Shown: in pieces, positions 11,296-52,189 of the stretch
How the letters are laid out: every line of letters begins with the position of its first letter
How positions within the stretch are numbered: the stretch's first letter is position 1
Virus record (IMG/VR): IMGVR_UViG_3300026116_000048
Span: 1 to 53,126 of that record
Direction: 5' to 3' (one strand)
Source of the DNA: a virus
Length of the DNA stretch: 53,126 nt
Notes under the pieces: generated by a model
Database searches by the model: none
What the model saw: the letters and a program-made list of their open reading frames with translations, nothing else
What the model was told of the DNA's origin: nothing
Program-made: the position numbers and the translations under genes

Positions 11296-11398
11296 ACGAT
11301 GCTGGTTCAGTGGAAAATCAATTCCGAAAGCGTGATGGTCTGTCCGTGTGCCGGCCAGCATCGTAACTTGCAGGCATGCGATGGGTCGTCACGCTTTC
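11296..11398. promoter_or_regulatory. Interleaved inverted repeats before serine recombinase
   Basis: Two perfect 10-base inverted repeats are interleaved: ACGATGCTGG (11296-11305) with CCAGCATCGT (11355-11364), and GAAAGCGTGA (11326-11335) with TCACGCTTTC (11389-11398). The order A-B-A'-B' could fold as an RNA pseudoknot or be paired recombinase or operator sites. It lies directly before the recombinase start at 11414. Confidence 0.6.
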
Positions 11399-11413
11399 AG
11401 AGAGGATAACACA

Positions 11414-12094
11414 ATGACCAAAGCATTTTCTTACCTGCGGGTGTCTGGAATGTCTCAAGTCGAGGGCGACGGATTGCAACGCCAGCGGGAAAAGGTTGAG
11501 GCCTTCGCGGTGAATCACGGATATGAGATCGTTCAGGAATTTTCAGACGAAGGGGTGAGCGGAACCAAGGATCATCTGGATAGACCTGGGCTGTCGGCTC
11601 TGATGCTGGCAATGGCGGGCAATGGCGTGCGTGTGATGTTGATTGAGCGCGCGGACAGATTGGCCCGTAATTTGATGGTGGGTGAGATCGCGCTTGAAGA
11701 GTTCAGAAAGATAGAAGCCAAAGTAATTTCGGTGGATTTGGGGGCGGATTTGATTGTTAGCGATGAGGATGACCCGACAAAGAAACTGTTTCGGCAGTTT
11801 TTAGGCGCTATTGCCGAATGGGAAAAGACAGTGCTTGTGCATAAGCTAAGGCTGGCTCGGATGCGTATTAAGCAACAGAACGGCAAATGCGAGGGAATAA
11901 CCGCGTTTGGTTCGAAGGATGAAGAGAAGCCGATTGTCAGTCGAATGCTGGAATTAAAGAGCAAGGGCTATACAACGAGTATGATTGCTGCGAAACTGAA
12001 TGAGGAAGGCGCAAAAACGCGGATGAATGCGCAATGGCATAGGACTTCAGTTATCAGAGTGATTGAACGGCAGAAACCGTGTGGAGATTTATGA
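11414..12094 (+). CDS. Serine recombinase (resolvase/invertase family)
   Basis: A 226-residue site-specific serine recombinase. The catalytic Ser is S11 in SYLRVSGMSQ; the family Arg motif is present as LIERADRLARN, and FLGAIAEWEKTVLVHKLRLARMR forms the long E helix. The C-terminal 45 residues (VSRMLELKSKGYTTSMIAAKLNEEGA...WHRTSVIRVIER) form the helix-turn-helix. Size fits the small resolvase/invertase group, not the large phage integrases. ATG 11414 has AGAGAGGA upstream as ribosome-binding site. Since a tyrosine integrase is also present, this enzyme may resolve multimers or invert a segment. Its site could be the interleaved repeats just upstream. Confidence 0.85.
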   Translation: MTKAFSYLRVSGMSQVEGDGLQRQREKVEAFAVNHGYEIVQEFSDEGVSGTKDHLDRPGLSALMLAMAGNGVRVMLIERADRLARNLMVGEIALEEFRKIEAKVISVDLGADLIVSDEDDPTKKLFRQFLGAIAEWEKTVLVHKLRLARMRIKQQNGKCEGITAFGSKDEEKPIVSRMLELKSKGYTTSMIAAKLNEEGAKTRMNAQWHRTSVIRVIERQKPCGDL

Positions 12095-12366
12095 ACACAA
12101 AGATTGGCGGCGGTCCAGCATTTCCGAACGGCGGCGTATCAAAAGTGTCTCAGATAACCGGGAAAGTCTTGGAAAACTTTCAAGGATCACAAGGGATGTC
12201 ACTACGCGATTACTTTGCAGCGAGGGCTATGGTGGGAATTCTGTCGCAAGCATCAGAAAGAACGTGGCCATCAGAAAGAACGTGGCCATCAGATACACCC
12301 GAGGCATTGGCGCAATGTGCATACCAAACTGCCGATGCAATGCTTGCAGAACGTATAAAAAGTTAA
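12091..12366 (+). CDS. Conserved small phage protein with internal duplication
   Basis: A 91-residue protein from ATG 12091 (ATGA overlap with the recombinase). The GGPAFP N terminus, the central GMSLRDYFAARAM and the C-terminal AYQTADAMLAERIKS are marks of a very common phage hypothetical protein that is usually 80-100 residues long. Between them the six-residue unit SERTWP occurs twice in a row, from a perfect 18-base duplication. The function is not known. Confidence 0.7.
   Translation: MNTKIGGGPAFPNGGVSKVSQITGKVLENFQGSQGMSLRDYFAARAMVGILSQASERTWPSERTWPSDTPEALAQCAYQTADAMLAERIKS
12251..12286 (+). repeat. 18-base perfect tandem duplication
   Basis: The unit CATCAGAAAGAACGTGGC occurs at 12251-12268 and 12269-12286, followed by a partial third copy (CATCAGA). 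In frame, it inserts six residues into the encoded protein, so it looks recent and tolerated. Confidence 0.9.
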
Positions 12367-12373
12367 AGGCAAA

Positions 12374-12398
12374 GAGACGCGCTTTTGTTCGTCGTCTC
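12374..12398. terminator. Bidirectional terminator-like hairpin
   Basis: GAGACG (12374-12379) pairs with CGTCTC (12393-12398) across a 13-base loop, followed by GATTTT on the + strand. It lies in the short gap between convergent genes (stop at 12366 and the GroES stop at 12405), where a shared terminator is expected. The stem is short, so the call is tentative. Confidence 0.4.
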
Positions 12399-12404
12399 CG
12401 ATTT

Positions 12405-12680
12405 TCATGCCTCCACCAGCGTCAAAATCTCATCCTGTCTGAGCAAGCGATATTTTACGCCGTCGTACTCAAGGTCAGTGCCGCCAATCTTGGGCAAGAT
12501 GACCTTATCATCCGTTTTGACAATCATGGGCGATTGTTCTGAGCCGGGGCCAGCGGCGACAACCACGCCGCATTGAGATGGCTGCTTGAATTCGTCGGGG
12601 ATTTGAATGGAGAGAGATTCCGGGTTGGGATCGACCAGTTTAACGAGCACATTTGAACCGGTGGGCCTGAGAGTTTTCAT
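12405..12680 (-). CDS. groES: Phage-encoded GroES co-chaperonin
   Basis: A 91-residue Cpn10/GroES-family protein. The fold pattern is visible: LRPTGSNVLVKLVDPNPES at the N terminus (GroES starts I/LRPLxDRVLVKxxE), a mobile-loop region LSIQIPDEFKQPSQC, then GVVVAAGPGSEQSPMIVKTDDKVILPKIGGTDLEYDGVKYRLLRQDEILTLVE, matching the GroES VGDxVLF...G.EV...YLIMRExDILAIVE ending. The heptamer caps GroEL and aids protein folding. It is the last gene of the minus-strand packaging/head operon, so it probably helps fold the capsid or portal, as T4 gp31 does. The mobile loop lacks the usual GGIVL triplet, which may mean altered GroEL affinity. Confidence 0.85.
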   Translation of the reverse strand: MKTLRPTGSNVLVKLVDPNPESLSIQIPDEFKQPSQCGVVVAAGPGSEQSPMIVKTDDKVILPKIGGTDLEYDGVKYRLLRQDEILTLVEA

Positions 12681-13178: not shown

Positions 13179-15431
13179 CTATTCTCCGTTTTCAGTGCTG
13201 GCACTATGCACTGCCTTGATATTTTCACGCTGGATTTCTCCAAAGGCGGCCGCATCCTTTCTTCGTTCGTCGTGCTCCGTCTGCAAATCTTTGCGATGCT
13301 GCTCGCGGACAAAGGATTCGTCCTTATGCTGGTTCTTGAGATTCGCGTTTTGTTCTGAGATTTTGGCTTTAGTAACAGCCTGGGTGACCATGGATTGAAT
13401 TTTGGCCTGGGTCATCGCCATTTCGGACGCGCCATTCTCGCCATTTGGCATTTGTTCAGCCAATCGTTGCTCAAATCCCTTGACGGCATTCATCAATTTA
13501 CCGAGCGATTGGCCGAATTGTTTGGCAATCGGCATCTGTTGCTTATCCTGGGCGAGTTGGTCAATCATTTGGGCGGTATATGATTCGCAATTCTTGAGCC
13601 CGATAACTTCATCGGGCCTCGCCATGTTGCCGGTCTGTTCAATTCTGGCAATAACACCCGCCATACTGCCAAGCATGGTTGAAATCTGATCGATGAGAGA
13701 CAATCCCTGTCGGCGCTGGACGGGAACCCCGAGCATGAGGGTGGAAAAGGCGAGTTCAGCGTGTTCCTGAGCATCGGTAAGTCCGCGTTGCTGTCCGACG
13801 GGTGCCCATCGTTCGGCCTTTTTCGGATCGCCAGTGACGGCAATCAGCCATTCATGTTTGATTTCCTGTTGCGCGGTCGTATCGAAGGCAGGCAGGCGTT
13901 CCATGAGCGCGTTGCCCTGCGCGATTTCCATGGTTGGATTTCCGTTTCCGAGCGGCATAGCGACTTCGACTTCCCACATTTCGCTATTTATCCAAACGGA
14001 TGGGATGCCGTATTCCCGGCAGGCTTTTTGAAAGTCTCTGGCGTCTTGATCTTCTGAGTTTCGTAGGCAAAACCGCCGGCAAGTTTCTTCATACTGAAAA
14101 GTTTCATATTGTTGAGCTGTGCCGAGCAACCCGCTCATCATCGCGTTTACCTGTGAGATTCGGGCCATGACTTGAGTGGCCGTTTCTTCGGTGTTCCGAC
14201 GCGATTCACTGTCTTGTGTGTAGGCAAGAGACGCTTCCTGCTTCAATTCCCTCATTCCCTGCTTGGCCATGGCGACGATTTGAGGATTGATCTGATGCCG
14301 TTCGGTTTGTGGCACGATGGACACACCATCGGGAATCACCCCCATGTTATAGAGGTCCACTTTTTGAGCGCGCGCTTTGCCTTGCGCATCCTGAACACGA
14401 ATCCAGGCGTTCATGTGCTCATGAACATGCTGCAAAAACCGGCAATCGAGCAGATTGGAATGAAAGATCGGTTCCATGACGAGAAATCCGAGGGCACGAA
14501 TGCTGTGAATCAGGAAGGGAGGCTTGTTGTTGAGATCGCCATATTGCATTTGCAACAGATGCTCGATTTTCTTCGCGGCACAACGTTTTCCGCCGTCATA
14601 AATGAACTTATCGGTTGGCGCGGACAGCGCAGTTGTGTCCGGCACAATGCGCAAGCGCCATTCGGGATTTTTGCGATCACTATCGTCTAGAAAATAGAAG
14701 TGAAAGAGTGGAATTGTCGGCACGGCATCACCCGAATAAAATCCGCCATTCTGCTTGATGAGTTCAGCCATCTTTTCGGGATTATCCGCCCACTTTGGAG
14801 AGTTGGATTCCCAGTTCTGATTGTGAACGGCGTCCAACATTTGGGTAACCGCAGGCTTGTTCCAGCCCCTACCGCTGCCGCCAAAGACTTTCCGCGACAA
14901 TTCGCCTTCAGTATAAGGCTTTCGAACAGCGAACCATTGAAGATTGGACAAATCGCATCGGGTATCCGTCGGAAAACGAAAATCTTCAAGAGGAACAAAA
15001 TCTGGCTGCACGCAATAGTTGTCTGGGTATAGACACGGAGCATAACCATGGGGAAGCACAGCCGCCCATTTGGAGCGCTGGAGTTCAAAGTATTTGAGAG
15101 ATCGCTTTAGCGGTTTATTAATGCGCTTGGTAATGAATGCGCTCCAATCCGCTTGCTTCTCGGGTGGGGCATCGGGTAGGCGCACGGTAAAAAAATTGCT
15201 GCGGGAAAGAAAAGCGTTTTGATATTGGCGTCGGCCATGCTGGCCAAGAACCGGGGCTTCACCAAAATTGCAATTAATCTTCAGTCCCAATTTTTTGGCA
15301 TCTTCATCTGTAAGCAGTGGAGCTCCGTTGAAAATCTGATTGATTTTGGCGCGATTGTTGCCCTGCTTTCGGGCGGCTTCGTCGGTCGCGCGAATAGTGG
15401 CGAGGACTTTGGAGCAGTCGGAGAATATCAT
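13179..15431 (-). CDS. Portal protein
   Basis: A 750-residue protein placed two genes downstream of the large terminase. Its N-terminal region (NRAKINQIFNGAPLLTDED...GQHGRRQYQNAFLSRSNFF) and very long helical C terminus (ANLKNQHKDESFVREQHRKDLQTEHDERRKDAAAFGEIQ) fit portal proteins of podovirus type, which have a clip and wing domain and a C-terminal barrel of helices. The portal ring forms the DNA channel at one capsid vertex, binds the terminase and joins the tail. Residues SEDQDARDFQKACREYGIPSVWINSEMWEVEVAMPLGNGNP are consistent with the wing. The start ATG overlaps the upstream stop (ATGA). Confidence 0.75.
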   Translation of the reverse strand: MIFSDCSKVLATIRATDEAARKQGNNRAKINQIFNGAPLLTDEDAKKLGLKINCNFGEAPVLGQHGRRQYQNAFLSRSNFFTVRLPDAPPEKQADWSAFITKRINKPLKRSLKYFELQRSKWAAVLPHGYAPCLYPDNYCVQPDFVPLEDFRFPTDTRCDLSNLQWFAVRKPYTEGELSRKVFGGSGRGWNKPAVTQMLDAVHNQNWESNSPKWADNPEKMAELIKQNGGFYSGDAVPTIPLFHFYFLDDSDRKNPEWRLRIVPDTTALSAPTDKFIYDGGKRCAAKKIEHLLQMQYGDLNNKPPFLIHSIRALGFLVMEPIFHSNLLDCRFLQHVHEHMNAWIRVQDAQGKARAQKVDLYNMGVIPDGVSIVPQTERHQINPQIVAMAKQGMRELKQEASLAYTQDSESRRNTEETATQVMARISQVNAMMSGLLGTAQQYETFQYEETCRRFCLRNSEDQDARDFQKACREYGIPSVWINSEMWEVEVAMPLGNGNPTMEIAQGNALMERLPAFDTTAQQEIKHEWLIAVTGDPKKAERWAPVGQQRGLTDAQEHAELAFSTLMLGVPVQRRQGLSLIDQISTMLGSMAGVIARIEQTGNMARPDEVIGLKNCESYTAQMIDQLAQDKQQMPIAKQFGQSLGKLMNAVKGFEQRLAEQMPNGENGASEMAMTQAKIQSMVTQAVTKAKISEQNANLKNQHKDESFVREQHRKDLQTEHDERRKDAAAFGEIQRENIKAVHSASTENGE

Positions 15432-16131: not shown

Positions 16132-17958
16132 TCAATTGTGTTCAAGCATAGCGCTTTGAAATATGTCACTCTGTTTCTTAGCCTCTTCTTCAAGCCATGA
16201 GTCGTAATCGCTTTGATCGGTTTCTTTTGCCAGTTTGGCGATTTGAAATCCGCGTCGGCGTGCGCCTTCAGCCAGAATTGCGAGCTGATCAAACATGTCC
16301 GGACTTTGTCGGGTGCGGACTTTCATGTCCTCCTTTGGTTCAACCTGAATGACTTTTACTCCGCCGCGAGGGACATAATCCCATTCGCGTTTGCAGCCCT
16401 CATCCATTACATCATCTGAAAGCCCGCGAAGCTGGCCGGATTCGATCATGTAGCGCACGGCAAACCACAGTTCAGTGACGAAGTTGTGATAATGTTCGTC
16501 CGAAAGTTTTAGGCGCATGCCGCTGGTCTCTTCATCGTGAATGAACATATCAAGCGAGACGGGCCGGGTTGTGGGCCTGCCGCCGAATTCAATAGGATTG
16601 CAGGCGGCAGACCAATGACGAGCCAAGGCGGTACCGAGCGAGCCGCGTCCGGTGGAATCGTGAAAGAAATCTTCAGGCTCAATGCGCAGATCCTCGCATT
16701 TATGTTTTACCCATCGGGCGATCTGGTTCTCTGGTTCGTCTTTGCCTACGATGATGGGAACTATGAACGGCGGATAGACACACAGGATTTGACGCCCTTC
16801 GATGTCGGTGCCGAATTCACCCCAACCAAACATACATCGGTCCCCGCCGTAAGCAGCATCGAGGGAGGCAATGCGCTTACGGTCGTCGTTCAACCAGCGC
16901 GGCATGTCGAGCGCATGATTGTCGCGGCACATTTTGCGCGTGATGACGCGGCGGGCCATCATCGCGATCTTCATAGAGCCGACGCATTGGGAGTAATACT
17001 CGGGAGAGTCTTTGGAGAAGAATGAGAGCGTTTCCTGAATCTTTTCGCGACTGATAAGATATTTGAATCGGGCGGGTCCAGGCAGATCGAAATTGGGAGA
17101 ATCGGTCCCAATCAGATTAACACAGACGCCGCCCATGAATCGCGTTTGCCAGACGGTGGTTTTTTCCACATCCATGTAACTGCCCCATCCGTCGATAGGT
17201 TCAGCGGCCATGCCAAGGGGATCGGAGATGTCGATTGGATTTCCGGAGAGTGCAGCTCGAAAATCTTCGTTCTTGTTCAGGTTTGCGAATGCGCTCAGGA
17301 AGCTTGGCCCCATTAACTGCGCTTCATCGGCGAGCAATCGCACTCTCTTTTGTTTGACGCCCACCCATTTTCCAAGGCCGACAGATTTGTTGCCTTGAAT
17401 AGTTGGTATGCCGACGATGCCTTTGCGCATGTCGCGCACTCGCTTGGCCTCATCAACCTCATTGTCTTCCAAGGTATCGGTGGTTATGGCAATCCGGCTG
17501 TCCAATAAATTGCCGGGAAGATAATCGAATCGATCTTTGGCCTTTTGCCACAGGTCGGAAATCTCACCCCAAACGCGCAGACGCAGTCCGCGCACGTCCG
17601 TCGAAGAGACGAGCACAAGCGTTTCTTGCGGGAAACAAAGATATTCGCAAAGGAAAACCCAGGAAGCTCCGTTAGTTTTTCCGCTAGACCCCGGCCCCAT
17701 CAACACTGTGATTTTATTTCTAAGAAGTTCATCGCGGCAGAGATTGTGCCATCGGTGATCGTCCATGTGCGGCCATAGGAGTTTACGCATTTCCTCGAAA
17801 TGGAAACTGAGGCCATTGCCGAAAATGCGACCGCTTTTATCCTTCCACTGTCCCCCTTTCTGAATCATCCACATTTCGACCTTGAGTTGGTCGTATTGAT
17901 CGGCCCTCCAACTGAGACCGTATTTTGTGAATGAACGCGCTGGTTGAGTGTCGGCCAC
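16132..17958 (-). CDS. terL: Terminase large subunit
   Basis: A 608-residue packaging motor. ATPase: Walker A is MGPGSSGKT (residues 87-95), Walker B is VRLLADEAQ (206-213) with the catalytic Glu, and LSGNP (238-241) is the coupling motif. Nuclease: RNase H-like Asp at SLDAAYGGD (D367), HDSTGRGS (D434) and SPDMFDQLA (553-560). The motor cuts concatemeric DNA and drives it through the portal using ATP. The start is GTG 17958, opposite a divergent + strand operon. It is the first gene of the leftward head operon. No small terminase is recognisable nearby. Confidence 0.9.
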   Translation of the reverse strand: MADTQPARSFTKYGLSWRADQYDQLKVEMWMIQKGGQWKDKSGRIFGNGLSFHFEEMRKLLWPHMDDHRWHNLCRDELLRNKITVLMGPGSSGKTNGASWVFLCEYLCFPQETLVLVSSTDVRGLRLRVWGEISDLWQKAKDRFDYLPGNLLDSRIAITTDTLEDNEVDEAKRVRDMRKGIVGIPTIQGNKSVGLGKWVGVKQKRVRLLADEAQLMGPSFLSAFANLNKNEDFRAALSGNPIDISDPLGMAAEPIDGWGSYMDVEKTTVWQTRFMGGVCVNLIGTDSPNFDLPGPARFKYLISREKIQETLSFFSKDSPEYYSQCVGSMKIAMMARRVITRKMCRDNHALDMPRWLNDDRKRIASLDAAYGGDRCMFGWGEFGTDIEGRQILCVYPPFIVPIIVGKDEPENQIARWVKHKCEDLRIEPEDFFHDSTGRGSLGTALARHWSAACNPIEFGGRPTTRPVSLDMFIHDEETSGMRLKLSDEHYHNFVTELWFAVRYMIESGQLRGLSDDVMDEGCKREWDYVPRGGVKVIQVEPKEDMKVRTRQSPDMFDQLAILAEGARRRGFQIAKLAKETDQSDYDSWLEEEAKKQSDIFQSAMLEHN

Positions 17959-18005: not shown

Positions 18006-18024
18006 TGTTACACAATGTGTAACA
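18006..18024. promoter_or_regulatory. Palindromic operator TGTTACACAATGTGTAACA
   Basis: A perfect 9-base-arm palindrome with one central base, lying between the divergent terminase and tail-gene operons. A near-identical palindrome lies at 35117-35133 in the other divergent late promoter, next to an XRE regulator gene. Likely an operator overlapping the late promoters. Confidence 0.75.
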
Positions 18025-18072
18025 TACTACATATAGTAATTAAATTTATGGCATGTTAAAAATTGCGTGATT

Positions 18073-18924
18073 ATGAGTTCGCCTACGCCTTGCACGCCAT
18101 GCTGTTCGGAAACTCAAACAGTCAATGTGCCGGGGAGCACCGGAGCTAGCGCGATAACGGTAACGACTGCAAACTTCATCATTCCCTCCGTTGGCGGTTC
18201 GGTAACGGTTTCGGTCGGTGATACGAGCTGGATGACGGAAGGGAAAAATCTGTTTGTCAGCGACGGAGGTACGACTGGAAATTTCGAGGTCTCTTTTATC
18301 AATGGGGCAACCAGTGTCGATTTAACTTTTTTGGGCATGGTTGGTGACTCTCTGGTTGGCCAAACGATAGTCGCTGGATCAATTGTTGCGCCCGGTCTTG
18401 GCCATTACACCGTTTCTTCAGATCTTGATTTGCTCACCGCATTTACCGACAACACTGGTGGAACCAAGTCAGATACAATCCCCGTCAGTCTAGCGAAGAG
18501 CACACTGATAATTCCGGTCAGCCTGGTAGGAATTACAGCCAACTCGCTTCAGGCGGCAATTGCGGTGCCATTCGCATTCACGCTCAACAGTGTTCAATTT
18601 CGCGTCAGTAAAATTGCATCTACGTCGTCGAAACTCGCGACTCTCACAGCTCAGGTCAATGGATCATCTGTCACCGGCGGAGCAGTGGCGCTGACGACTT
18701 CCAATTGCGGAACCTATGGCGCGACCGTGGCTGGCAGTGCGATCACTGGAGGGAACACCGGCACTGCCGGCCAGACGATTGGTTTTGTTTCCAGCAGTGT
18801 CACCGCTTTTTCTGAAGGCGATGGATTCATGGAATTCAATGTAACCAATCTGGACCAAACCGCGTGGATTGCGGCGGTGGCATTCAAGCTCAACCAACTA
18901 CGTACAGCGCTGCGGCATCAATAA
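18073..18924 (+). CDS. Beta-rich virion structural protein
   Basis: A 283-residue protein from ATG 18073. The N terminus PCTPCCSETQTVNVPGSTGASA is one I associate with structural proteins of environmental phages; it is followed by Gly/Thr/Ser-rich short beta repeats (TVTTANFIIPSVGGSVTVSVGDTSWM) like a fibre or decoration domain, and a C-terminal beta domain ending DQTAWIAAVAFKLNQLRTAL. It begins the rightward structural operon facing the terminase operon. Likely a tail or decoration protein exposed on the virion; receptor specificity unknown. Confidence 0.6.
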   Translation: MSSPTPCTPCCSETQTVNVPGSTGASAITVTTANFIIPSVGGSVTVSVGDTSWMTEGKNLFVSDGGTTGNFEVSFINGATSVDLTFLGMVGDSLVGQTIVAGSIVAPGLGHYTVSSDLDLLTAFTDNTGGTKSDTIPVSLAKSTLIIPVSLVGITANSLQAAIAVPFAFTLNSVQFRVSKIASTSSKLATLTAQVNGSSVTGGAVALTTSNCGTYGATVAGSAITGGNTGTAGQTIGFVSSSVTAFSEGDGFMEFNVTNLDQTAWIAAVAFKLNQLRTALRHQ

Positions 18925-27495: not shown

Positions 27496-27690
27496 TTGGC
27501 TAAGTTCGGGAGAATGCTCCATATTGCTGGCGGGATATTAATCGCGATAATCGTAATAATAGTGGCGGCGATATTCATTCCTTTGTTTTTCAAAATCATC
27601 GAGCCGATCGTTCTCGCGATTGTGTATATAATCCTCGGACCATTTATGCTCTATGATTGGCTTAAAAAGAAATTGAAAAAAGAACTTTAA
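27496..27690 (+). CDS. Small two-helix membrane protein, holin-like
   Basis: A 64-residue protein with TTG start at 27496 or ATG at 27514. Two long Ile/Val/Leu segments (residues 11-31 and 36-53) separated by FFKIIEP and a lysine-rich C terminus WLKKKLKKEL suggest a hairpin inner-membrane protein with cytoplasmic tail. Size and layout are compatible with a class II holin, though a clearer holin lies at 41907. Its stop overlaps the convergent scaffold stop. Confidence 0.5.
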   Translation: MAKFGRMLHIAGGILIAIIVIIVAAIFIPLFFKIIEPIVLAIVYIILGPFMLYDWLKKKLKKEL

Positions 27691-28898
27691 CCCTTCAAAT
27701 CCTTCAATTCCTCGGCAAACGTCTTTTTAGCAGGTGTATTGGTCGAATCTCCCCCCGGTCGTTGGGTCTTTCCCGGATCACTGTCTTTCAACTCAGCAAT
27801 CTGTGCCTGTAATTCAGCAATTTGTTCTTTGGCTTTGTTCAGGTCGTAGCGCAGAACTGGAAATGCGGCCGCACGCAGGCGCACATTGGCATCGAGAGTA
27901 ATTCTCTGCGCTTCAGTGAGGCTGGTTCCGTTGTGCCGGCTGTCTACCAGGGCGAGCGATTTGGTGAATAAATCGGCCCGTTGTTTGTCCTTCGGATCGG
28001 GTTGGAATACATCCGGGTTTTTCTCCGAAATATCGGTGTTGACCTTCGTCCAGGTGCTGGCGATCCATTCCCGGCGTTTATTGGCTTCGGCAATCTCAGC
28101 ATCACCGCGTTCTTTAGCCTTGGACTTTTCTTCAGCCAAAGCTTTGTTGCGCATGTAATCGAGGCGATGCAGTTCGTTGATATGATTGAGGACGGTTTGC
28201 GCCGAGTCACCGAATAATTCCTTGGCCGCAGCGGTCGCCTTACCCATAGATGACTTGGCAAGGTGATAGAGTGAACCGAAATCTTCCCATGTGGCAGCGC
28301 GCGTGCCAGTTTCACCGTTGGCCTGCTTGGTGACGACTTCAAGTCCGCTGACAATTTGTTTGGCGAATTCGGCGGCCTGGTCGAACGGCTTATCGTATTT
28401 CTCTTTGAATTCCGGAGAGGCTTCCTGTTTGAGTGCTCGAATTTCCGATTGCCGCTCTTCAAGATGCTTTTCTAGAGTGGTAATGCGCTCAGTCAATGCC
28501 GTGGTATCTTTGCCTCGTTTTTCGTAATCGGTGACTTTGGCGTTCAGTTCGTTAAGTTTGGCTGAAAGCGTTTTATTCTCGGATTCAATGCGCGAGGCAT
28601 ATTCCCTCAGACCCTTTGGCGTTTGAATGGTCTTATCAGGTTTGCCTTTGTCATCCGCTGGCTTTTGAGGTTCTGGCGGTTTTGCATCCGGTTTTTTATT
28701 GGGATCTGGACTCTCCGGCTCTTTCGGCTCGATGGCCTTGGCCGGTTTCTCCATGTCCGACAATTCGGCAAAAATATCTTCACCTGAATTACCGGCCATT
28801 GGCGCGGCGGGAGCATCGGAAGTTTTATCGGCGACGGGAGCAGTAACGGGTGCGGCAACTACACCTTCGGGGGCGAGATTAAGGATGCGTCGTAACAT
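27687..28898 (-). CDS. Capsid scaffolding protein
   Basis: A 403-residue, highly charged protein. Pro/Ala/Lys-rich disordered N-terminal 90 residues (AIEPKEPESPDPNKKPDAKPP), a long coiled coil (residues 100-170, YASRIESENKTLSAKLNELNAKVTDYEKR...ITTLEKHLEERQSEIRALKQE), another helical stretch with LAEEKSKAKERGDAEIAEANKRREW, and a positively charged small C-terminal helix-turn-helix-like end (KKTFAEELKDLKG) fit phage scaffold proteins, which direct shell assembly and then exit. It sits on the minus strand, separated from the capsid gene (35301, + strand) by the glycan cassette, which is unusual. Confidence 0.7.
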   Translation of the reverse strand: MLRRILNLAPEGVVAAPVTAPVADKTSDAPAAPMAGNSGEDIFAELSDMEKPAKAIEPKEPESPDPNKKPDAKPPEPQKPADDKGKPDKTIQTPKGLREYASRIESENKTLSAKLNELNAKVTDYEKRGKDTTALTERITTLEKHLEERQSEIRALKQEASPEFKEKYDKPFDQAAEFAKQIVSGLEVVTKQANGETGTRAATWEDFGSLYHLAKSSMGKATAAAKELFGDSAQTVLNHINELHRLDYMRNKALAEEKSKAKERGDAEIAEANKRREWIASTWTKVNTDISEKNPDVFQPDPKDKQRADLFTKSLALVDSRHNGTSLTEAQRITLDANVRLRAAAFPVLRYDLNKAKEQIAELQAQIAELKDSDPGKTQRPGGDSTNTPAKKTFAEELKDLKG

Positions 28899-31944: not shown

Positions 31945-32540
31945 CAGCAGCGTTGGAACATCATGCCGGTTTCAATCGGATAGAGTTCTCGGAAGCCCAT
32001 GGAACGCAGATGGGCAACCGCACGAAGCACGCCGCCACCCGCCCACTCCAAATCGTCGCAATAAACGAATCCACCGCTCAAGACTCTGGGAGCCCACTTC
32101 TTGACATCATCCACGGCTTCATTGCCATGATTGGCGTCAATGATCAGAAATCCAATGCCGTCTGGCGGTTCGACATCGCGCGTCCTTTTTCGAATGACGG
32201 TAGTGCAATTTTGAACACCCAAAACTTGGACATTTTTCAGGACGGATTGATAAGCAGCTTCGTGGTTTGCGCTTCCCCAATGTTTTCTGTCGGCCTCATT
32301 TATCTGTCCTTCCACTGAAGCTTCGGGCGACCAAGCGTCAATCGCATAAACCATGCCCTTGCCGATTTCTTTGTGGGCGAGAGCAAGACTCAAGGCTCCC
32401 CTTCCCATCCACACGCCCAACTCCACGGAAATCATCGGGCGATAGCTCAAAATCAATCCGGCGAACGTTTGAGCCTTGGGCACAGAGGTCCAACCGCCGA
32501 GCGATGGAACAAGGGTTGAAATTTGTTCAAAGAGTTTCAT
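31944..32540 (-). CDS. SAM-dependent methyltransferase (class I)
   Basis: A 198-residue class I methyltransferase. Motif I is VELGVWMGRGALSLALA (about residues 38-54), the acidic end of strand 2 is VYAIDAWSPE, and GIGFLIIDANHGNEAVDDVKKWAPRVLSGGFVYCDDLEW is the post-strand-4 region of the CmcI/Methyltransf_24 type, with IID and DDLEW acidic residues. The substrate is presumably a sugar or nucleotide sugar, as the gene is embedded between glycosyltransferases. One-base stop-start overlap with the GT11 gene. Confidence 0.75.
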   Translation of the reverse strand: MKLFEQISTLVPSLGGWTSVPKAQTFAGLILSYRPMISVELGVWMGRGALSLALAHKEIGKGMVYAIDAWSPEASVEGQINEADRKHWGSANHEAAYQSVLKNVQVLGVQNCTTVIRKRTRDVEPPDGIGFLIIDANHGNEAVDDVKKWAPRVLSGGFVYCDDLEWAGGGVLRAVAHLRSMGFRELYPIETGMMFQRC

Positions 32541-34897
32541 GTGAAATTCAAATCCTTCTCAGTTATCGTGAACAATCCGCAATGGCTGTCATTTATTCCG
32601 GCGGACAAAATCCATTTCCCCGACGAGGCTTCAACGGCACCAAGGGGAAATATGACTTTTACTTTGTGCTGAAGACATCCACTGCGTTCTACCGCCGAAA
32701 GTGTATCCAGCTCACTTCCCCAAATGATTGGCCGCTTGGAGATCGCGATTGGTTTGAACGGCGGTTGACCATCCATGAGCATTGCGCCAACGAAATAGCG
32801 GCGGCGATTTGGCGGAGGTTCGGAATCGACCGCAGAATGGAAGAAGCGCAAGAGTGAGCCTTTGTATAATATCGGCGTAGCCCCGCCTCGGATTGCGCCC
32901 CACGGCCAGCGAGGACCATCATATTCAGCGATTATCTTCGCAATTGGTCCTTGAAGTTCGATAACAACCGTCTTCGGCGAGGTTGAATAGATGCAGACGA
33001 TCTTTCCGGCATGACTCCATAGCAGCCAATTCTTTTCGCATGCGGACATATCGTTCTGTCCGTAATTCGGTTGAGAAACATTCTCCAGTTTCCACGTGGA
33101 ACTTTCGATCAGGCGCCCGTATTTGACGACCGCTCTGGGCGGCATAGCGGGAAAGGTCGAATCGACGTAAGATAGCCAAAGTTCGTTGTTGTGGGCGAAC
33201 AGGCGAGGGTCTTCTTCGGAGCCTCCTGATTGCGGCAGCAGGATTGATTTCTTGTCGTAAACGTTTCCTTTTTCATCGACTTGAGCGATGGCCAAAGCGG
33301 TCGAAAGATTACGGTCGTCGTGATAGCGATATGCGAGTAAAAGCTTGCCTCCAAACCGAACGATGCTCCCGTTGTATCCATAGGAGTCCAAGGCGTGGCG
33401 ATTGACGATAGCGGCGGGGAGTTGTTCGACGCATGGCTTGGCCAGAGCGATTTGACCATGTTTGGCCTCAAAGTCATTATGGCATTGCTCATTCCATAGG
33501 TAGCGCCTGCCCCCTTGGATTTTTGCGGTTGATGGCGAGCGATAAACTCCGAACTGGATTTCTCTGCCGCCGGAGCTCTTTACGATATGAAGCAATGTTC
33601 GGCTCCAAAATTGGTCCGATCCTAAAAAGAATTCGGGCAGATCAGATTGATGTTTGGTCCACCATTTTTTTGTGAAGGCGAACAGGTCAACTTGGGGATT
33701 CCAGTTATCTCCGGTTTCATCCCGGTAGGTTCGATAGCTGTAGGCAGGCAATTCACCAGTCATTAATTCCATCGAAAGCGTTTCGGAAAAGCAGGTATCA
33801 GAACGGGTAAGAATGATAATGTCATCCGGGCGAGCGCGATAACAGGCGAGTCGGATAACGTCTTTCACATACGGATGCCGTTGATCGTCTTTAACAATTG
33901 AGTGGGCGTTGCTATCTCGGCCTAACGCGCCAACTTCGATTGGGCAGGCAATCCAAGGCCATTCTGCGTATTCGGGAAGCCAACTACTCTTTGCGGTTTG
34001 GTGTCGCGCCTTGGATTCATCGTGGAGTTCGTATTTACTCCAGACATGGATGAGGCGAGGTCCGGTACCGGTTTGAACCTTGAAATACGATCCGATTGAT
34101 CCAATACCTTCAATTGCATCCAACATTTCCACAGCGCGCAACGGGAAGTCTGAATAGCGAATGTGACTGATGTGATTGTATCGCCATGCTGAACCAAACC
34201 AGAGTTTTGGAGAGTCGTTTACCAAGGCGCAGACCGGAATTGGAATATTTGAACAGGCTTGGGCCAAATGAAGAAAAGCCGAATCAACGCTAATCAGGCA
34301 TCGTGCGGATTCCAGCAGTCCAATAAAGTCGTAAAACCGCTCGGCTTTAATTTGATTCAGGTCTATCAACCGGAGCGATCTTCCGCGCAGAAGTTCAAAC
34401 AGTAATTCGCGATACGGGAATGGGGACGATTTGCCGTTGGCGGCAACAAGAATGCCTGGCTGAGAATATCTGAATTTTAATTCTGTCTCTCTGGCAGTAT
34501 TCCGTCTATCGAAAATAGGTGGCGGCTGTCTGGACCAGATCTCCTGATTCTTTGTCAGCCAATATGGTTCCTTTTGGAAGCTATCGGTTTGGGCCTTATC
34601 GAATCCAGCAGGTCCATAGGTGATGTCTTTGACAACTTGGGTGTCGCCGATAACCTGTAAAGAGACTATCTCATCGCCGGTTGCTTTAGCCTCAGAATAT
34701 GCGCGGCGAAGTTCATTATCTTTGCCGTCGAATGGAATGCACTGCACGTAGGAAGTTCCTTCGAACAGCGAGGCATATTCCCGGCAACACATGACGCGGC
34801 ATGGCTGTCCGGTCGTCTGTGATTCGGCAAAGAAGATCGGAAGACAATTTATTAAGTCCCCAAGTCTGCCTAAGAGGATGAATGTCTTACTTGCCAT
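32537..34897 (-). CDS. GT9/GH130-like fusion glycan enzyme
   Basis: A 786-residue multidomain protein (ATG 34897; a TTG at 34912 would extend it). Domain 1 (1 to about 265) resembles GT9 heptosyltransferases: LLGRLGDLINCLP, SVDSAFLHLAQA. Domain 2 (about 270-450) is unknown but globular (HPYVKDVIRLACYRARPDDIIILTRSDTCF, WWTKHQSDLPEFFLGSDQFWSRTL). Domain 3 (about 480-786) looks like a GH130/GH43-type five-bladed propeller: SEEDPRLFAHNNELWLSYVDS, EKNWLLW, RGGATPILYKGSLLRFFHS, RRYFVGAMLMDGQPPFKPIAIS, VIFPLGAVEASSGKWILSAGINDSH. A transferase joined to a phosphorylase-like propeller could build and trim a glycan. It overlaps the XRE start by 11 bases. Confidence 0.75.
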   Translation of the reverse strand: MASKTFILLGRLGDLINCLPIFFAESQTTGQPCRVMCCREYASLFEGTSYVQCIPFDGKDNELRRAYSEAKATGDEIVSLQVIGDTQVVKDITYGPAGFDKAQTDSFQKEPYWLTKNQEIWSRQPPPIFDRRNTARETELKFRYSQPGILVAANGKSSPFPYRELLFELLRGRSLRLIDLNQIKAERFYDFIGLLESARCLISVDSAFLHLAQACSNIPIPVCALVNDSPKLWFGSAWRYNHISHIRYSDFPLRAVEMLDAIEGIGSIGSYFKVQTGTGPRLIHVWSKYELHDESKARHQTAKSSWLPEYAEWPWIACPIEVGALGRDSNAHSIVKDDQRHPYVKDVIRLACYRARPDDIIILTRSDTCFSETLSMELMTGELPAYSYRTYRDETGDNWNPQVDLFAFTKKWWTKHQSDLPEFFLGSDQFWSRTLLHIVKSSGGREIQFGVYRSPSTAKIQGGRRYLWNEQCHNDFEAKHGQIALAKPCVEQLPAAIVNRHALDSYGYNGSIVRFGGKLLLAYRYHDDRNLSTALAIAQVDEKGNVYDKKSILLPQSGGSEEDPRLFAHNNELWLSYVDSTFPAMPPRAVVKYGRLIESSTWKLENVSQPNYGQNDMSACEKNWLLWSHAGKIVCIYSTSPKTVVIELQGPIAKIIAEYDGPRWPWGAIRGGATPILYKGSLLRFFHSAVDSEPPPNRRRYFVGAMLMDGQPPFKPIAISKRPIIWGSELDTLSAVERSGCLQHKVKVIFPLGAVEASSGKWILSAGINDSHCGLFTITEKDLNFT

Positions 34898-35081
34898 TTT
34901 CCGCCGCTTCAATTCTTCGAATTAATTCCACCATGGCCACACTGTCGGGTGTGCGCTCACCGCGTTCGTAAGATCCGTATCTTCTAAGAGATAGTCCGAG
35001 GAGATTGGCGATCTCTTTTTGCCTCATGTTTTTCGATAAGCGCAGAGCCAACAATCTGTTCTTTAATAGAACGTCTGACAT
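34887..35081 (-). CDS. XRE-family regulator, controls late divergent promoters
   Basis: A 64-residue XRE/Cro-type repressor or activator. The helix-turn-helix is MRQKEIANLLGLSLRRYGSYERGERTPD (residues 19-46), with the usual QxxxAxxLGxxxxxxSxxExGxR pattern. It has no ligand or dimerisation domain, like Cro or restriction-modification controller proteins. Its gene sits exactly between the glycan cassette and the capsid operon, and palindromes lie 10-50 bases upstream of its ATG. The same palindrome lies in the 18 kb late promoter, so it probably coordinates late structural operons and itself. Confidence 0.75.
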   Translation of the reverse strand: MSDVLLKNRLLALRLSKNMRQKEIANLLGLSLRRYGSYERGERTPDSVAMVELIRRIEAAENGK

Positions 35082-35090
35082 TACATTTAT

Positions 35091-35133
35091 TTCTGTGTTA
35101 ACAGAATTTACTGTAAATTACACATTGTGTAAC
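35091..35133. promoter_or_regulatory. Three overlapping palindromes (operator array)
   Basis: TTCTGT-GTTA-ACAGAA (35091-35106), AATTTA-CTG-TAAATT (35105-35119) and ATTACACA-T-TGTGTAAC (35117-35133). The last differs from the 18007-18023 palindrome only at the first and the central base. They lie between the leftward XRE gene and the rightward capsid gene, so they could control both. Confidence 0.7.
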
Positions 35134-35300
35134 ATAAATAACAAGACAAATTTTTCAATCAGTCGTATAAGCAAAATTGAGAGTCGGGCCATTATCGCTC
35201 TCATCAGGTTTTAACGAACCTTGCAAGGCCAAAGCTGGGCGTAAGACGACCTCCCCAACGTCGCGTCGGTAAACCGTTAACCGTTTAACGAATTACAGCT

Positions 35301-36674
35301 ATGGCCATTGATTGCCCGAAACTTTCTGACTTTTTGTTCCGCCGAACACCGGATTGGGACATGGAACTTGCCCGTGATCGTTTTCCCCTGGACTACACCT
35401 ACCTCGGTCTTTACGAGAGCCAAAATTGGGATGCATTCAGCGGCACAGTTCATACCTGGGACCGCGTGCATGTCGCCATGGACAATGACGACGGCTGTTG
35501 GGACCAGATGGATGCGGACACGTTCACCAATGGCGAATGCGTGAAGCAGGATATGTGCGGACCGACGCGATTGGAAATCGGTTGGGGCAGCACTCGTAGC
35601 ACGTATGGCAAATACCACCGGGATTATACGACCCGTCCATTCTGCATGGATCGTCTGCGCCACATCGAGGAAGCGCGGCAGCAATTGGGAGCGATTGTCG
35701 AAGGCTTGCGAGATCTGCCTGAACAGATTCAAAGCAATTTCCAGAAGCTATTGGCCGTGCGCCAAGCTGATTACATTCATGTGTGCAGCCAGACCAACAG
35801 CTTTCCGACGGTGACCGTCAGCAACTCGATTTTCACGAACAATTGCACGCGCATCAACCTTGGCAGCAGCACGAAAGTGCCGACCTCAAAGTTGTCGATG
35901 CAGTACCTGAATCACTTTGCGCCAACGCTGATGTATAAGGGCTATTTCAATAAGAAATTCCTCAGCGGCAAAGAAGGCATGTCGCCCGCCGGCAAGTTCA
36001 CGATCATGACCGACATCCAGACACAGCAGGAATTGACGAATGCCAATCCTGCCCTGACCGGCATGTATAAGGCGGCTGACTTTACCAAGGGCGGCCAATT
36101 CTTCTCCTACGGAGTCATGGGCGGTTGTGGCGATTGGCTTTTCAAGGTCGATCCACAGCCAATGCGCTTTCTGCATACCGGCAACGGCGTTCTGATCCGC
36201 GTTCGTCCCTATCAAAATGTCTCGGCAACCGTCGGAAAAAAGCCTCAGTTCGATTCGCTCTACGAAAACGCGACCATCCAGCTTTCGCATATCTACGCAA
36301 GATCCGCCCGCGTCGTCTATACCGGCGACATTACCAGCGTGCATCCTGACATGCCGTTTGCCGCGCGCAGTCTCAACGGCAAATGGAGTTGGAAACAACC
36401 GGACGCTTTTCAGTATCGCGATCCTGAAACAGGCACTAACTGCACCTACTACAACGACAAAAAGAACCGGGGCTATTTCCTTGGCGAATTCGAGATCGGG
36501 ATGAAAACCATTTATCCCGAAATCGAAATGTGGGTGCTGCACTTGCGCGAAGCTCAGGCGGTTACAGACATCCCGCTCTCGGCGACGTTCACTAATCCGG
36601 CTCCGAACAGCGACGGCACATACCAGACGCTGACGCCTTACAACTCCGGCTGCGATACAACTGAGGAAGTTTAA
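35301..36674 (+). CDS. Major capsid protein
   Basis: A 457-residue protein in the usual position: first gene of a strong late operon, followed by decoration-like genes and a stem-loop. It has no signal peptide or enzyme motif. Sequence features include the N-terminal MAIDCPKLSDFLFRRTPDWDM arm, a charged helix RLRHIEEARQQLGAIVEGLRDLPEQIQSNFQKLLAVRQADYIHV, and a beta-rich C terminus (RGYFLGEFEIGMKTIYPEIEMWVLHLREAQAV). A long N arm plus helical spine is compatible with HK97-fold capsids. No close family recognised; the call depends on context and size. Confidence 0.65.
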   Translation: MAIDCPKLSDFLFRRTPDWDMELARDRFPLDYTYLGLYESQNWDAFSGTVHTWDRVHVAMDNDDGCWDQMDADTFTNGECVKQDMCGPTRLEIGWGSTRSTYGKYHRDYTTRPFCMDRLRHIEEARQQLGAIVEGLRDLPEQIQSNFQKLLAVRQADYIHVCSQTNSFPTVTVSNSIFTNNCTRINLGSSTKVPTSKLSMQYLNHFAPTLMYKGYFNKKFLSGKEGMSPAGKFTIMTDIQTQQELTNANPALTGMYKAADFTKGGQFFSYGVMGGCGDWLFKVDPQPMRFLHTGNGVLIRVRPYQNVSATVGKKPQFDSLYENATIQLSHIYARSARVVYTGDITSVHPDMPFAARSLNGKWSWKQPDAFQYRDPETGTNCTYYNDKKNRGYFLGEFEIGMKTIYPEIEMWVLHLREAQAVTDIPLSATFTNPAPNSDGTYQTLTPYNSGCDTTEEV

Positions 36675-49042: not shown

Positions 49043-49170
49043 CTGATAGCCTCCAACCAAATGTTGAGACGCGATTGCCAATAAGCAAAACGCCAGAAAA
49101 TACGCGAAGGTACTGCACACGCTAGAAGTGCCAACCGAGCCAAAAACCTTTTGATCTTCATCAGTTTCAT
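49039..49170 (-). CDS. 43-residue basic membrane-like protein
   Basis: ATG 49170 overlaps the previous stop (ATGA) and the TGA overlaps the primase-helicase GTG (GTGA). MKLMKIKRFLARLALLACAVPSRIFWRFAYWQSRLNIWLEAIR has a basic start, one hydrophobic segment and a Trp/Arg-rich tail. The gene contains the GGAGG ribosome-binding site of the helicase gene inside it. Coupling on both ends supports it. Function unknown. Confidence 0.5.
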   Translation of the reverse strand: MKLMKIKRFLARLALLACAVPSRIFWRFAYWQSRLNIWLEAIR

Positions 49171-49799
49171 GGCGTGAACAGTTGGCGCTGCGGGCGGCTG
49201 TGGCCGTTAGCGAACTTTTTAGCGTTCTCCCTCCACGTCACCATTGCCTGCCTCCAATCCACCATCGGAAGTCCGGTTTTATACTTCCATCCACGGGAAC
49301 TGTGATAAGCAAAGAACCCTTCAATCTCAGACGGTGGTAATCCGATCTTTGAAGCGTGTAGTTCCATTTCTGAAAACGTTGGTATACTAAATCTCTTTAG
49401 AGATTTAGGTTCCCGGTTCCCGGTTCCCGGTTCTGCTACCCTTTTTGGGGTACCTTTCGGGGGTCTTTCGGGGGTCTTTCGGGGGTCTTCGACGTGAGTA
49501 AGGTGTCCGTTTTGGGGTATCTTTGAATGGCACGCTGCATTGGGGAGTTGATATACCCTCACTTGCTGGGTTGCACCGGTACGCTTTCCGGTATCAACTA
49601 TCAGTCCTTGTTCGGTCAATGATTTAAGCGCCCGGCGAACGGCTTTGTCCTCAGCTTGGGTGATACCACAGACCGTCTCTACAGTGGGATACGCTTTACC
49701 GGTTTCGCTGGCGAAGTTACAAAGTGCCAAAAGCACCAGTTTTTGTGTGGACGATTGAACTTCCGTTTCAAACGCCCAAGATAATGCTTTTAGGCTCAT
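49167..49799 (-). CDS. Winged-helix protein of the replication operon
   Basis: A 210-residue protein from ATG 49799. Residues 1-90 form a winged helix-turn-helix (HTH_36-like): SWAFETEVQSSTQKLVLLALCNFASETGKAYPTVETVCGITQAEDKAVRRALKSLTEQGLIV. A Pro/Arg/Lys/Gly-rich linker (EDPRKTPERPPKGTPKR) encoded by repeats follows, then a C-terminal block with FFAYHSSRGWKYKTGLPMVDWRQAMVTWRENAKKF, which is common in phage replication proteins. Likely a helicase loader or initiator for the primase-helicase just downstream. This is a second winged-helix protein besides that at 9963. Confidence 0.7.
   Translation of the reverse strand: MSLKALSWAFETEVQSSTQKLVLLALCNFASETGKAYPTVETVCGITQAEDKAVRRALKSLTEQGLIVDTGKRTGATQQVRVYQLPNAACHSKIPQNGHLTHVEDPRKTPERPPKGTPKRVAEPGTGNREPKSLKRFSIPTFSEMELHASKIGLPPSEIEGFFAYHSSRGWKYKTGLPMVDWRQAMVTWRENAKKFANGHSRPQRQLFTP
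49389..49406. repeat. Strong hairpin AAATCTCT-TT-AGAGATTT
   Basis: Perfect 8-base arms around a two-base centre inside the coding sequence of the winged-helix protein, directly beside the repeat block at 49408-49488. Could be a transcript structure or a protein site; no known role. Confidence 0.6.
49408..49488 (-). repeat. Short tandem repeats (7-mer and 11-mer) in the linker
   Basis: GGTTCCC occurs three times at 49408-49428, and the 11-base unit TTCGGGGGTCT three times at 49456-49488. Neither unit is a multiple of three, but three copies are (21 and 33 bases), so the frame is kept only with three-fold copy changes. They encode the Pro/Arg/Gly/Glu linker of the winged-helix protein. Confidence 0.85.
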
Positions 49800-50050
49800 A
49801 GCGACTTCTCCTTGTGCGAGTTTTCTCCAGCGATGTAACAACGCTCTCCTGTTTGCGAGATGGTTCTACAAAGAGCGGAAAACGATTCAAGTACGTCAGG
49901 GTTTCGGCATCCTGTAAGTATGTCGCTAATAGCAGTAGCCGAATCCGGATTATTACGTAGCAAGTCGTGAAGTTCCGAGAAGCAGTTCAGACTAGAAAGG
50001 TGTAATCGTAAAGGGTCCCTTGAGGATTTTAGTGTTTCCAAGAAGGTCAT
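49796..50050 (-). CDS. First gene of the leftward early operon, unknown
   Basis: An 84-residue protein from ATG 50050 (the frame is open to 50152). MTFLETLKSSRDPLRLHLSSLNCFSELHDLLRNNPDSATAISDILTGCRNPDVLESFSALCRTIS is a series of short helices with three Cys. No family is recognised. It begins the leftward operon, 124 bases downstream of the first operator-like 16-mer, so it is probably an early regulator or replication factor. Confidence 0.5.
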   Translation of the reverse strand: MTFLETLKSSRDPLRLHLSSLNCFSELHDLLRNNPDSATAISDILTGCRNPDVLESFSALCRTISQTGERCYIAGENSHKEKSL

Positions 50051-50173: not shown

Positions 50174-50189
50174 CACAGTGTTCTACACT
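50174..50189. promoter_or_regulatory. Operator-like 16-mer, copy 1
   Basis: CACAGTGTTCTACACT, identical to 50320-50335. Related half-sites (AGTGTAGAACA, GAACACTGTG) lie between the divergent repressor genes near 52190-52225. Likely a repressor binding site before the leftward early operon. Confidence 0.7.
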
Positions 50190-50319
50190 CGTCAACACTT
50201 ATTTTGCTGTGTACAGGTCTGTGTACATTTTTTTATCTCCTAACTGATTCTGCATTTTCGTATCGAAATGCACTTAAAGCCTTGTTGGCATGTGCTCTTA
50301 ATTGTGTAAACCACTGATT

Positions 50320-50335
50320 CACAGTGTTCTACACT
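50320..50335. promoter_or_regulatory. Operator-like 16-mer, copy 2
   Basis: A second perfect copy of CACAGTGTTCTACACT, 131 bases from the first and 10 bases before the tRNA fragment, so it may also affect attP or the integrase region. Confidence 0.7.
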
Positions 50336-50345
50336 GGCGGAGGAA

Positions 50346-50394
50346 CTGACTTCGGATCAGAAGGTTACAGGTTCAAGTCCTGTCGGACGCGCCA
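50346..50394 (+). other. Candidate attP: 3' part of tRNA-Arg(TCG)
   Basis: The 49 bases contain a complete anticodon loop (CTGA-CTTCGGA-TCAG, anticodon TCG), variable loop, T arm (ACAGG-TTCAAGT-CCTGT) and acceptor 3' strand ending GCCA. The 5' acceptor strand (expected GCGTCCG) is absent upstream, so it is not a full tRNA gene. It lies 10 bases beyond the integrase stop. This is the usual form of attP for tyrosine integrases that use a tRNA 3' end; the host attB would be a tRNA-Arg(TCG) gene. Confidence 0.8.
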
Positions 50395-50404
50395 CTTATG
50401 GAAG

Positions 50405-51628
50405 CTATTTTTTTTCGTGTACTGGCACGTGTACATCCAGAGAGAGAATATTGCCAGGCATCTTCAACATCGCCCATGCCGGTTCACCTTTCGGCATCCA
50501 AGTCAAACCTTCTCCTCCTCGCCAATTGTCTGGAATGCCACCGTAGCTGGCGACTACTGTCGAGGCTCCGCTACTGTCGCCAAGCTCGTCTGCGATCTGG
50601 CCGTCTCCAATGCCTTGCGACCGGCGCACGGTCACGTAGTACGCACGCAAGCCGTGACTAGTGCGATGTTTGCCGCACACGGAGCGCGAGGCCCGCGCCA
50701 GTGACTTTGTGAGAGATGACGCATTCAACGGAATTTCCTTTCCGCTGTGTGAACTGGGCAACCACCAAGGCCCAGTCTTGTTTCTCCACAAACGCCAGCG
50801 TTTTAATGCTTCAAGGCATTCTTTAAGCGAATCGTGAATGTGAGACCAAGGGCGCACTCCATTCTTCGAACGATTCAACCACAGCCAATCGTTTTCAACA
50901 AAACCAGCCTCGGTGCGATCCTTAGCATCCCATCGCAGTCGGACAATCTCGGAGGTTCTACAGCCGGTCATGGCTTGCAACAAAACCTGCCATCCGAGGA
51001 CTTCGCTCTGTCGCCGCTTAAAAAAATAGGTCGCAAGCGCGTGAAGCTCCTCGGCATCAGAGGGCATGAATTGATAACAGTGCTTAATCGTTTTGCCCGG
51101 TCGAAAGCGTTGGCGGACTGCAATCGGATTAGCGTCCATCTTGCCAAGAGATACCGCCCAATTAAAAACGTTAGCCAAAGTAACCAGTTCAAGATCGGTC
51201 GTGCGTGCGCCGGTGCCCCTTTTCACGCGCGCCTTACGCCAACTAAAATAGAGACCGCAGTCTTTTGACCTTATTGTGTCGGCCTGTCGTTTGCCAAAAA
51301 ATGCGATCAGTTGCTTGATTCGGCTTTGTTCATCATACAACTGCTTACCTTTTCGCGAACTGTGCTGGCGATCAGGGCAACCTTTCTTTTCGTATTCAAT
51401 ACATAAGTCCGCCACGGTTTTGGCTGGAGGTGCGTAAGGATCACGGGCCAACCCGTGCACTGCGCGTGCTTGGTCTGTGCGCCGCGCCGAAAGCATATCT
51501 TTGGCATCTTTTAGGGTTTGCGCGGGGATTTTGCGCCAAGTTGTTTTGCCGTTGATTATGGGGCGCTCTAAAAAGCTTCCATTTCGAGAATCAACATAGA
51601 TGCCAGGGGCAATACTTTTGCGGCTCAT
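50405..51628 (-). CDS. int: Tyrosine integrase
   Basis: A 407-residue tyrosine recombinase. Catalytic residues: R224 in TGCRTSEIVRLRW, HGLR (H325, R328) and the nucleophile Y362 in VVASYGGIPDNW. The second conserved H/K position is less clear (ELGDSSGAS). The N-terminal 180 residues contain arm-binding and SAM-like core-binding parts (AKTVADLCIEYEKK, KDCGLYFSWRKARVKRGTG). It recombines attP with the host tRNA-Arg gene for integration and excision. The gene ends next to the attP fragment. ATG 51628. Confidence 0.9.
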   Translation of the reverse strand: MSRKSIAPGIYVDSRNGSFLERPIINGKTTWRKIPAQTLKDAKDMLSARRTDQARAVHGLARDPYAPPAKTVADLCIEYEKKGCPDRQHSSRKGKQLYDEQSRIKQLIAFFGKRQADTIRSKDCGLYFSWRKARVKRGTGARTTDLELVTLANVFNWAVSLGKMDANPIAVRQRFRPGKTIKHCYQFMPSDAEELHALATYFFKRRQSEVLGWQVLLQAMTGCRTSEIVRLRWDAKDRTEAGFVENDWLWLNRSKNGVRPWSHIHDSLKECLEALKRWRLWRNKTGPWWLPSSHSGKEIPLNASSLTKSLARASRSVCGKHRTSHGLRAYYVTVRRSQGIGDGQIADELGDSSGASTVVASYGGIPDNWRGGEGLTWMPKGEPAWAMLKMPGNILSLDVHVPVHEKK

Positions 51629-52112: not shown

Positions 52113-52189
52113 AATTGTCAGCACTCTTAACACTGTTGGTAAATAAAATCAATATTTTTGAAAATATATATTGACCGGAAATTACGGAT

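Follow-up and report, generated by a model that had tools for sequence, protein, structure and literature searches.

Two copies of one palindrome between divergent phage genes, with a 64-residue XRE protein as candidate regulator

Two divergent intergenic regions of a viral genome, some 17 kb apart, contain nearly the same palindrome, and a gene for a small XRE protein lies beside one of them, which raises the question of whether a single regulator acts on the four transcription units that diverge from these sites. To our knowledge, gene regulation in phages of uncultured Verrucomicrobia, the probable hosts in this case, has hardly been described.

RESULTS

A probably complete genome of a probable temperate phage

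The window, i.e., the whole stretch of DNA that was analyzed, measures 53,126 bp and corresponds to an entire IMG/VR virus record. Since both record ends (positions 1 to 99 and about 53032 to 53126) consist of a shared GATTGCTCC minisatellite and, when connected, give a single open frame, the record probably represents a complete circular genome. The open reading frame (ORF) that starts at 52864 and crosses this junction specifies a long protein of Cys-Ser-Asp and Cys-Ser-Gly tripeptide repeats (MATQIFETKEDFDNRAD...), with an uncertain repeat copy number. Among the encoded proteins are a tyrosine integrase (50405 to 51628), a serine recombinase, RecT, a DnaB-like helicase-primase, and a replication initiator; the serine recombinase (11348 to 12542) contains a Resolvase domain and a partial Recombinase domain and is possibly split over two frames. 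Beside the integrase gene, at about 50349 to 50394, we found the 3' portion of a gene for tRNA-Arg(TCG), anticodon loop included, and the attP region (50175 to 50394) combines this segment with two copies of a CACAGTGTTCTACACT repeat that are likely arm sites for the integrase. A 45-bp exact query with the tRNA segment against 84,980 species genomes yielded four matching stretches, three of them from Verrucomicrobia metagenome-assembled genomes (MAGs), with two of these three in one subdivision 3 contig, and the fourth from an unclassified MAG. On the basis of the integrase and these matches to the attP segment, we infer that the phage is temperate and that its probable host belongs to the Verrucomicrobia.

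The palindrome occurs twice, in divergent gaps only

The sequence TTACACA-N-TGTGTAA is present in exactly two copies in the 53,126 bp (18008 to 18022 and 35118 to 35132), against 6.7e-5 exact copies expected. Site 1 (18006 to 18024, no strand assigned; TGTTACACAATGTGTAACA) is a perfect 9+1+9 palindrome located between the terL-like gene (minus strand) and the gene at 18067 (plus strand). In site 2 (35117 to 35133, likewise strandless; ATTACACATTGTGTAAC), the outer A/C pair is mismatched, so that perfection is limited to the 15 bp from 35118 to 35132. The near-identity of the two sites reported in the first-pass annotation was confirmed, as the reverse complement of site 2 equals site 1 over 17 bp (TGTTACACAATGTGTAA). 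A scan of the whole record with TTACACANTGTGTAA, allowing up to three mismatches, returned nothing beyond these two sites, both intergenic and between divergent genes, and hence none of the random coding-region copies that the same annotation had named as a check on its proposal. For the site 1 19-mer, the next best match in the record has five mismatches, and a search of IMG/VR for the full 19-mer found none except in the window's own record.

Chance is a poor account of this arrangement. When the window was simulated 300 times with a Markov model, two 15-bp palindromes with identical arms never arose, and 0 of 20,000 simulated intergenic pairs of the same composition shared a 15-bp palindrome; moreover, the window has three perfect odd 15-bp palindromes (at 18008, 35105, and 35118), and each falls inside one of the two divergent gaps, which make up 0.6% of its length. 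Given these statistics, the two-operator reading is well supported, and the two palindromes are very likely to be, as predicted, two operators of one regulator.

The third of these perfect palindromes (35105 to 35119, strandless; AATTTACTGTAAATT), absent from the first-pass annotation, overlaps site 2 by 2 bp, with its center 13 bp away, and is a candidate accessory site. The two further palindromes that had been described as flanking site 2 are indeed present, and both are imperfect and strandless: one, interrupted (TTACATTTATTTCTGT/ACAGAATTTACTGTAA; 35081 to 35116), spans the leader of the XRE gene with 13 of 16 arm positions matched, while the other, of 26 bp (35266 to 35291), lies upstream of the 35301 gene and is unlike the operators in sequence. 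RNA folding of these two regions (35081 to 35116 and 35266 to 35291) was no better than that of shuffled sequences, and we rejected the palindromes as RNA hairpins or terminators on account of such folds and the absence of a T run. Also rejected was a LexA box, since the motifs in PMC8565304 (e.g., the Bdellovibrio TTAC-N3-GTAA) do not fit TTACACANTGTGTAA.

Probable structural genes flank both sites

The first gene leftward of site 1 (16132 to 17958, minus strand) encodes a probable terminase large subunit, with a Walker A motif (GPGSSGKT) and a Walker B motif (VRLLADEA); a PDB sequence search with this protein gave no match; 25 relatives in all were found in IMG/VR, the first 11 of which share 53 to 62% identity with it. 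A 750-residue protein (13179 to 15431, minus strand), conserved near the terminase in relatives, is portal-like judging from its position. The first gene of the operon rightward of site 1 (18067 to 18924, plus strand) probably starts at the ATG at 18073. In relatives, too, the leading genes of this operon, including homologues of the first one, point away from the terminase gene.

The first gene rightward of site 2 (35301 to 36674, plus strand) encodes a 457-residue protein that we take, from its position after a scaffold-like gene in relatives, to be capsid-like. The gene in question encodes a coiled-coil protein (27687 to 28898, minus strand), presumably scaffold-like, which is conserved in relatives and can directly precede the 35301 homologue there; in two of them (G002 and G003), the homologue of the 457-residue protein follows that of the coiled-coil protein on one strand. 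In the window, these two genes point apart and are separated by a block of glycosyltransferase, methyltransferase, and GH130-like genes together with the XRE gene. The divergent blocks include the probable terminase and other structural-module genes. That the sites lie between divergent late operons, as the first-pass annotation put it, holds for the divergent gaps, whereas "late" comes from gene content only; on that ground, we would expect all four units to be transcribed late.

The XRE gene heads the operon leftward of site 2

The 64-residue XRE protein had been placed beside site 2, and the gene (34887 to 35081, minus strand) indeed starts, at 35081, only 36 bp from it. The product matches Pfam HTH_3 (PF01381) with an E value of 5.7e-8 and 33.1 bits, above the curated cutoff of 23. 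The gene is the first of a leftward operon, and since its stop overlaps the downstream gene's ATG (34897) by 11 nucleotides, as read from the sequence, it is probably translationally coupled to that gene (32537 to 34912, minus strand; 786 to 791 residues), the product of which is Glyco_hydro_130-like in its C-terminal part. Methyltransferase- and glycosyltransferase-like genes follow.

Among the window proteins scanned, this was the only HTH_3 protein; no CI/S24-like repressor was recognized, nor any other transcription repressor. No toxin family match was obtained for the adjoining genes, the neighbors being GH130-like in the leftward operon and capsid-like in the rightward one. Neither a divergent early lytic operon nor a Cro-like partner, as sought for a CI-type repressor, is present, and the divergent operon begins with the 35301-36674 gene. 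A PDB sequence search with the XRE protein gave weak matches only (best, C.AhdI; E value of 0.0066), and a single-sequence AF2 model was uninformative as to the five-helix fold, since it showed a pair of long helices that an HTH domain would hardly form.

The palindrome elsewhere

Across two sets of Verrucomicrobiota genomes with some overlap (384 and 387; about 640 in all), the exact palindrome was found in two copies in total, each just upstream of a toxin-antitoxin operon with an HTH_3 antitoxin. One copy (L051) lies about 10 bp upstream of an operon for a RelE-type toxin and an MqsA/HigA-like HTH_3 antitoxin and the other (L052) about 20 bp upstream of an operon for a HicA toxin and a HicB-type HTH_3 antitoxin; the recognition helices differ among these two antitoxins and the window protein. 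None of nine relaxed matches (TTACACNNNGTGTAA) in Verrucomicrobiota genomes lay beside recognizable toxin-antitoxin genes.

In viral contigs, one lineage (L073, L090, L095, and L170) has the palindrome in the gap from which a CI-like and a Cro-like HTH_3 gene diverge, with a second copy, containing two mismatches, 127 bp away. The copies at the two XRE-antitoxin operons and at this CI/Cro-type switch support, by sequence comparison, the use of this type of palindrome as an XRE operator elsewhere. As a group, viral copies were not enriched beside XRE genes (4 of 127 sites, all in one lineage, versus 2 of 83 for a reversed-palindrome control). Intergenic enrichment (19 of 50 lineages versus 6 of 46; P = 0.01) was carried by C/G-centered copies, and for A/T-centered copies, the type seen in the window, the figures with lineages collapsed were not significantly different (11 of 34 versus 5 of 25; P = 0.38). 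Since in another phage lineage (L084, L104, L124, L138, L140, and probably L168) a gene for a 142-residue DnaA_C-domain protein, which may itself bind the neighboring palindrome, ends 74 bp from TTACACANTGTGTAA, the palindrome is not diagnostic of XRE proteins.

The palindrome was absent from the 25 terminase-related loci, and no XRE homologue was found in the nine relatives' records searched; palindromes also precede the gene of a small XRE homologue (L003). No prophage relatives emerged when the contigs of named genomes were scanned with a terminase profile. Because relatives that reach the region upstream of terminase lack the palindrome there, we ruled out a conserved late operator of the phage group. 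The operator arrangement is thus specific to this phage rather than part of a conserved late-gene system, and operators and XRE gene would have been acquired recently. No relative found carries either the operators or the XRE gene.

DISCUSSION

A candidate XRE repressor with two operators

The 64-residue XRE protein is likely the regulator of both palindromes: it is the best candidate because no other scanned protein of the window belongs to HTH_3, because its gene comes first in the operon at site 2, and because the palindrome elsewhere heads operons for XRE antitoxins. We consider it slightly better than an even bet that the protein (34887 to 35081) is an autoregulated repressor that governs four divergent transcripts from two operators. 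In an XRE homodimer, each subunit would place its recognition helix in one TTACACA half-site. From site 2, the dimer would repress the operon on the left, which encodes it, and the capsid-like operon on the right; from site 1, it would repress the terminase operon on the left and the structural operon on the right. The four structural-region transcripts would thereby be kept at a common low level until XRE is removed or outcompeted. The earlier proposal that one small regulator controls all four late units stands in part: the palindrome statistics, the first position of XRE in the adjoining operon, and the palindrome at XRE-antitoxin operons speak for it, whereas control of four units is read from position only and XRE as the binder is a prediction. 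Repression of all four divergent units is our best guess, and binding by XRE, repression rather than activation, and late transcription should all be read as putative.

The circuit would be of a known kind in an unusual place, among structural genes. The Vibrio cholerae HigA2 operator, TGTACGC(N)5GCGTACA, lies immediately downstream of the -35 element and reaches across the -10 element (PMC11006873), and Pseudomonas aeruginosa HigA, with the operator TTAACGTTAA, has a further operator at mvfR (PMC6987408), in line with the second site at another promoter in the window. Antitoxins of the HigA, MqsA, and HicB type resemble the window in combining an HTH_3 protein with a palindrome in its own promoter, which at the L051 and L052 operons is identical (TTACACANTGTGTAA); in the window, however, no toxin adjoins XRE, glycan and methyltransferase genes follow it, and the targets are structural phage operons. 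Phage CI/Cro-type switches likewise share a small HTH_3 protein, divergent promoters, and neighboring palindromes with the window, and in the L073 lineage the intergenic palindrome is the same, but here a capsid-like gene takes the place of the divergent partner regulator, the second site, at the terminase promoter, is 17 kb distant, and the locus is far from the integrase. Since both the antitoxin operons and the CI/Cro-type lineage carry the palindrome, one would, by analogy with HigA2, expect XRE to be what binds and repression to be the result.

In mycobacteriophages, the stoperators are likewise operator copies at a distance from the gene for the repressor; the window differs in having two sites only, both in divergent promoters and not within operons.

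Other readings of the two sites

That the sites are instead operators of a different phage protein, e.g., the product of 51807-52133 (with a weak HTH_32 match) or the HTH_36 replication initiator (49167 to 49841), with XRE present by coincidence or binding only the overlapping AATTTACTGTAAATT palindrome at 35105 to 35119, is unlikely, though to be taken seriously: the DnaA_C-domain protein does adjoin the same palindrome in another lineage, but the XRE gene is a direct neighbor and heads its operon, and no other protein scanned was recognized as a transcription repressor.

Unlikely too, and somewhat harder to uphold, is an XRE protein that binds both sites as a late-gene activator and switches on the four structural transcripts together. 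In phage Mu, the C protein acts at dyad-symmetric sites common to several late promoters, and the sites studied here are at structural blocks rather than at any early switch; C belongs to a different protein family, however, and activation is not indicated in the window. Promoter predictions at both sites were at about chance level, and one weak sigma70-like match, which puts the site 1 palindrome over the -35 position, would suit an activator, but promoter elements clearly above chance were not found, and the interpretable exact copies elsewhere are in promoters of autoregulating antitoxins or of a CI/Cro-type pair, the usual setting of repression.

We give only a slim chance to a host regulator, such as an XRE antitoxin or some other factor encoded by the host chromosome, whose binding to the sites the phage exploits. 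Two Verrucomicrobiota genomes do carry an exact copy just ahead of XRE-antitoxin operons of their own, but two copies in about 1.4 Gb of genomes of the class are close to the chance estimate of two, the relaxed palindrome occurs no more often than the reversed one used as a control, and two of the genomes that have the attP tRNA segment in common with the phage contain no exact copy, which argues against a widespread host regulon; moreover, it is the phage's own XRE gene that adjoins the site.

Finally, single-stranded hairpin promoters of an N4-like virion RNA polymerase are very unlikely, to the point of being negligible, because the apparently complete circular record lacks a giant RNA polymerase gene (largest ORF, 965 residues), and the two copies have A/T centers in a genome with an integrase, whereas the C/G-centered palindrome recurs five to six times in contigs (L126 and L184) with MoxR/VWA-like genes.

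A more far-reaching scenario for the XRE repressor can be imagined, which we regard as a long way from probable: a glycan-modification cassette of a temperate Verrucomicrobia phage, with its minimal 64-residue repressor, would have inserted between the scaffold-like and capsid-like genes, and a second operator would have arisen at the terminase promoter, so that both structural blocks were captured; the repressor would then hold structural genes instead of an early switch, and relatives without the cassette would be without the operators. If confirmed, this would provide a defined two-operator circuit in which a very small repressor acts on structural genes and would show that a mobile cassette can put a late module under new control; if the conservative part alone is true, it adds one more XRE repressor with two operators.

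Observations in other phage contigs

Two to six exact TTACACA-N-TGTGTAA copies, mostly C/G centered, are present in six contigs (L126, L184, L173, L146, L117, and L142) that have MoxR-ATPase-like and VWA-like genes similar to the ones in N4-like phages; copies are located at 399, 1551, 2886, 4017, 4091, and 6601 in L126 and at 464, 3154, 6920, 8366, and 9971 in L184. In these contigs, the palindromes are candidate hairpin promoters of a virion RNA polymerase.

Among the terminase large-subunit relatives, four (L013, L014, L015, and L037) appear to carry inteins, and in L037 a GIY-YIG-like gene is inserted in the divergent terminase intergenic region. One clade (L033, L034, L035, and L041) has an inverted repeat of its own in the divergent terminase promoter, ACGCTAG...CTAGCGT, with the two parts about 55 bp apart.
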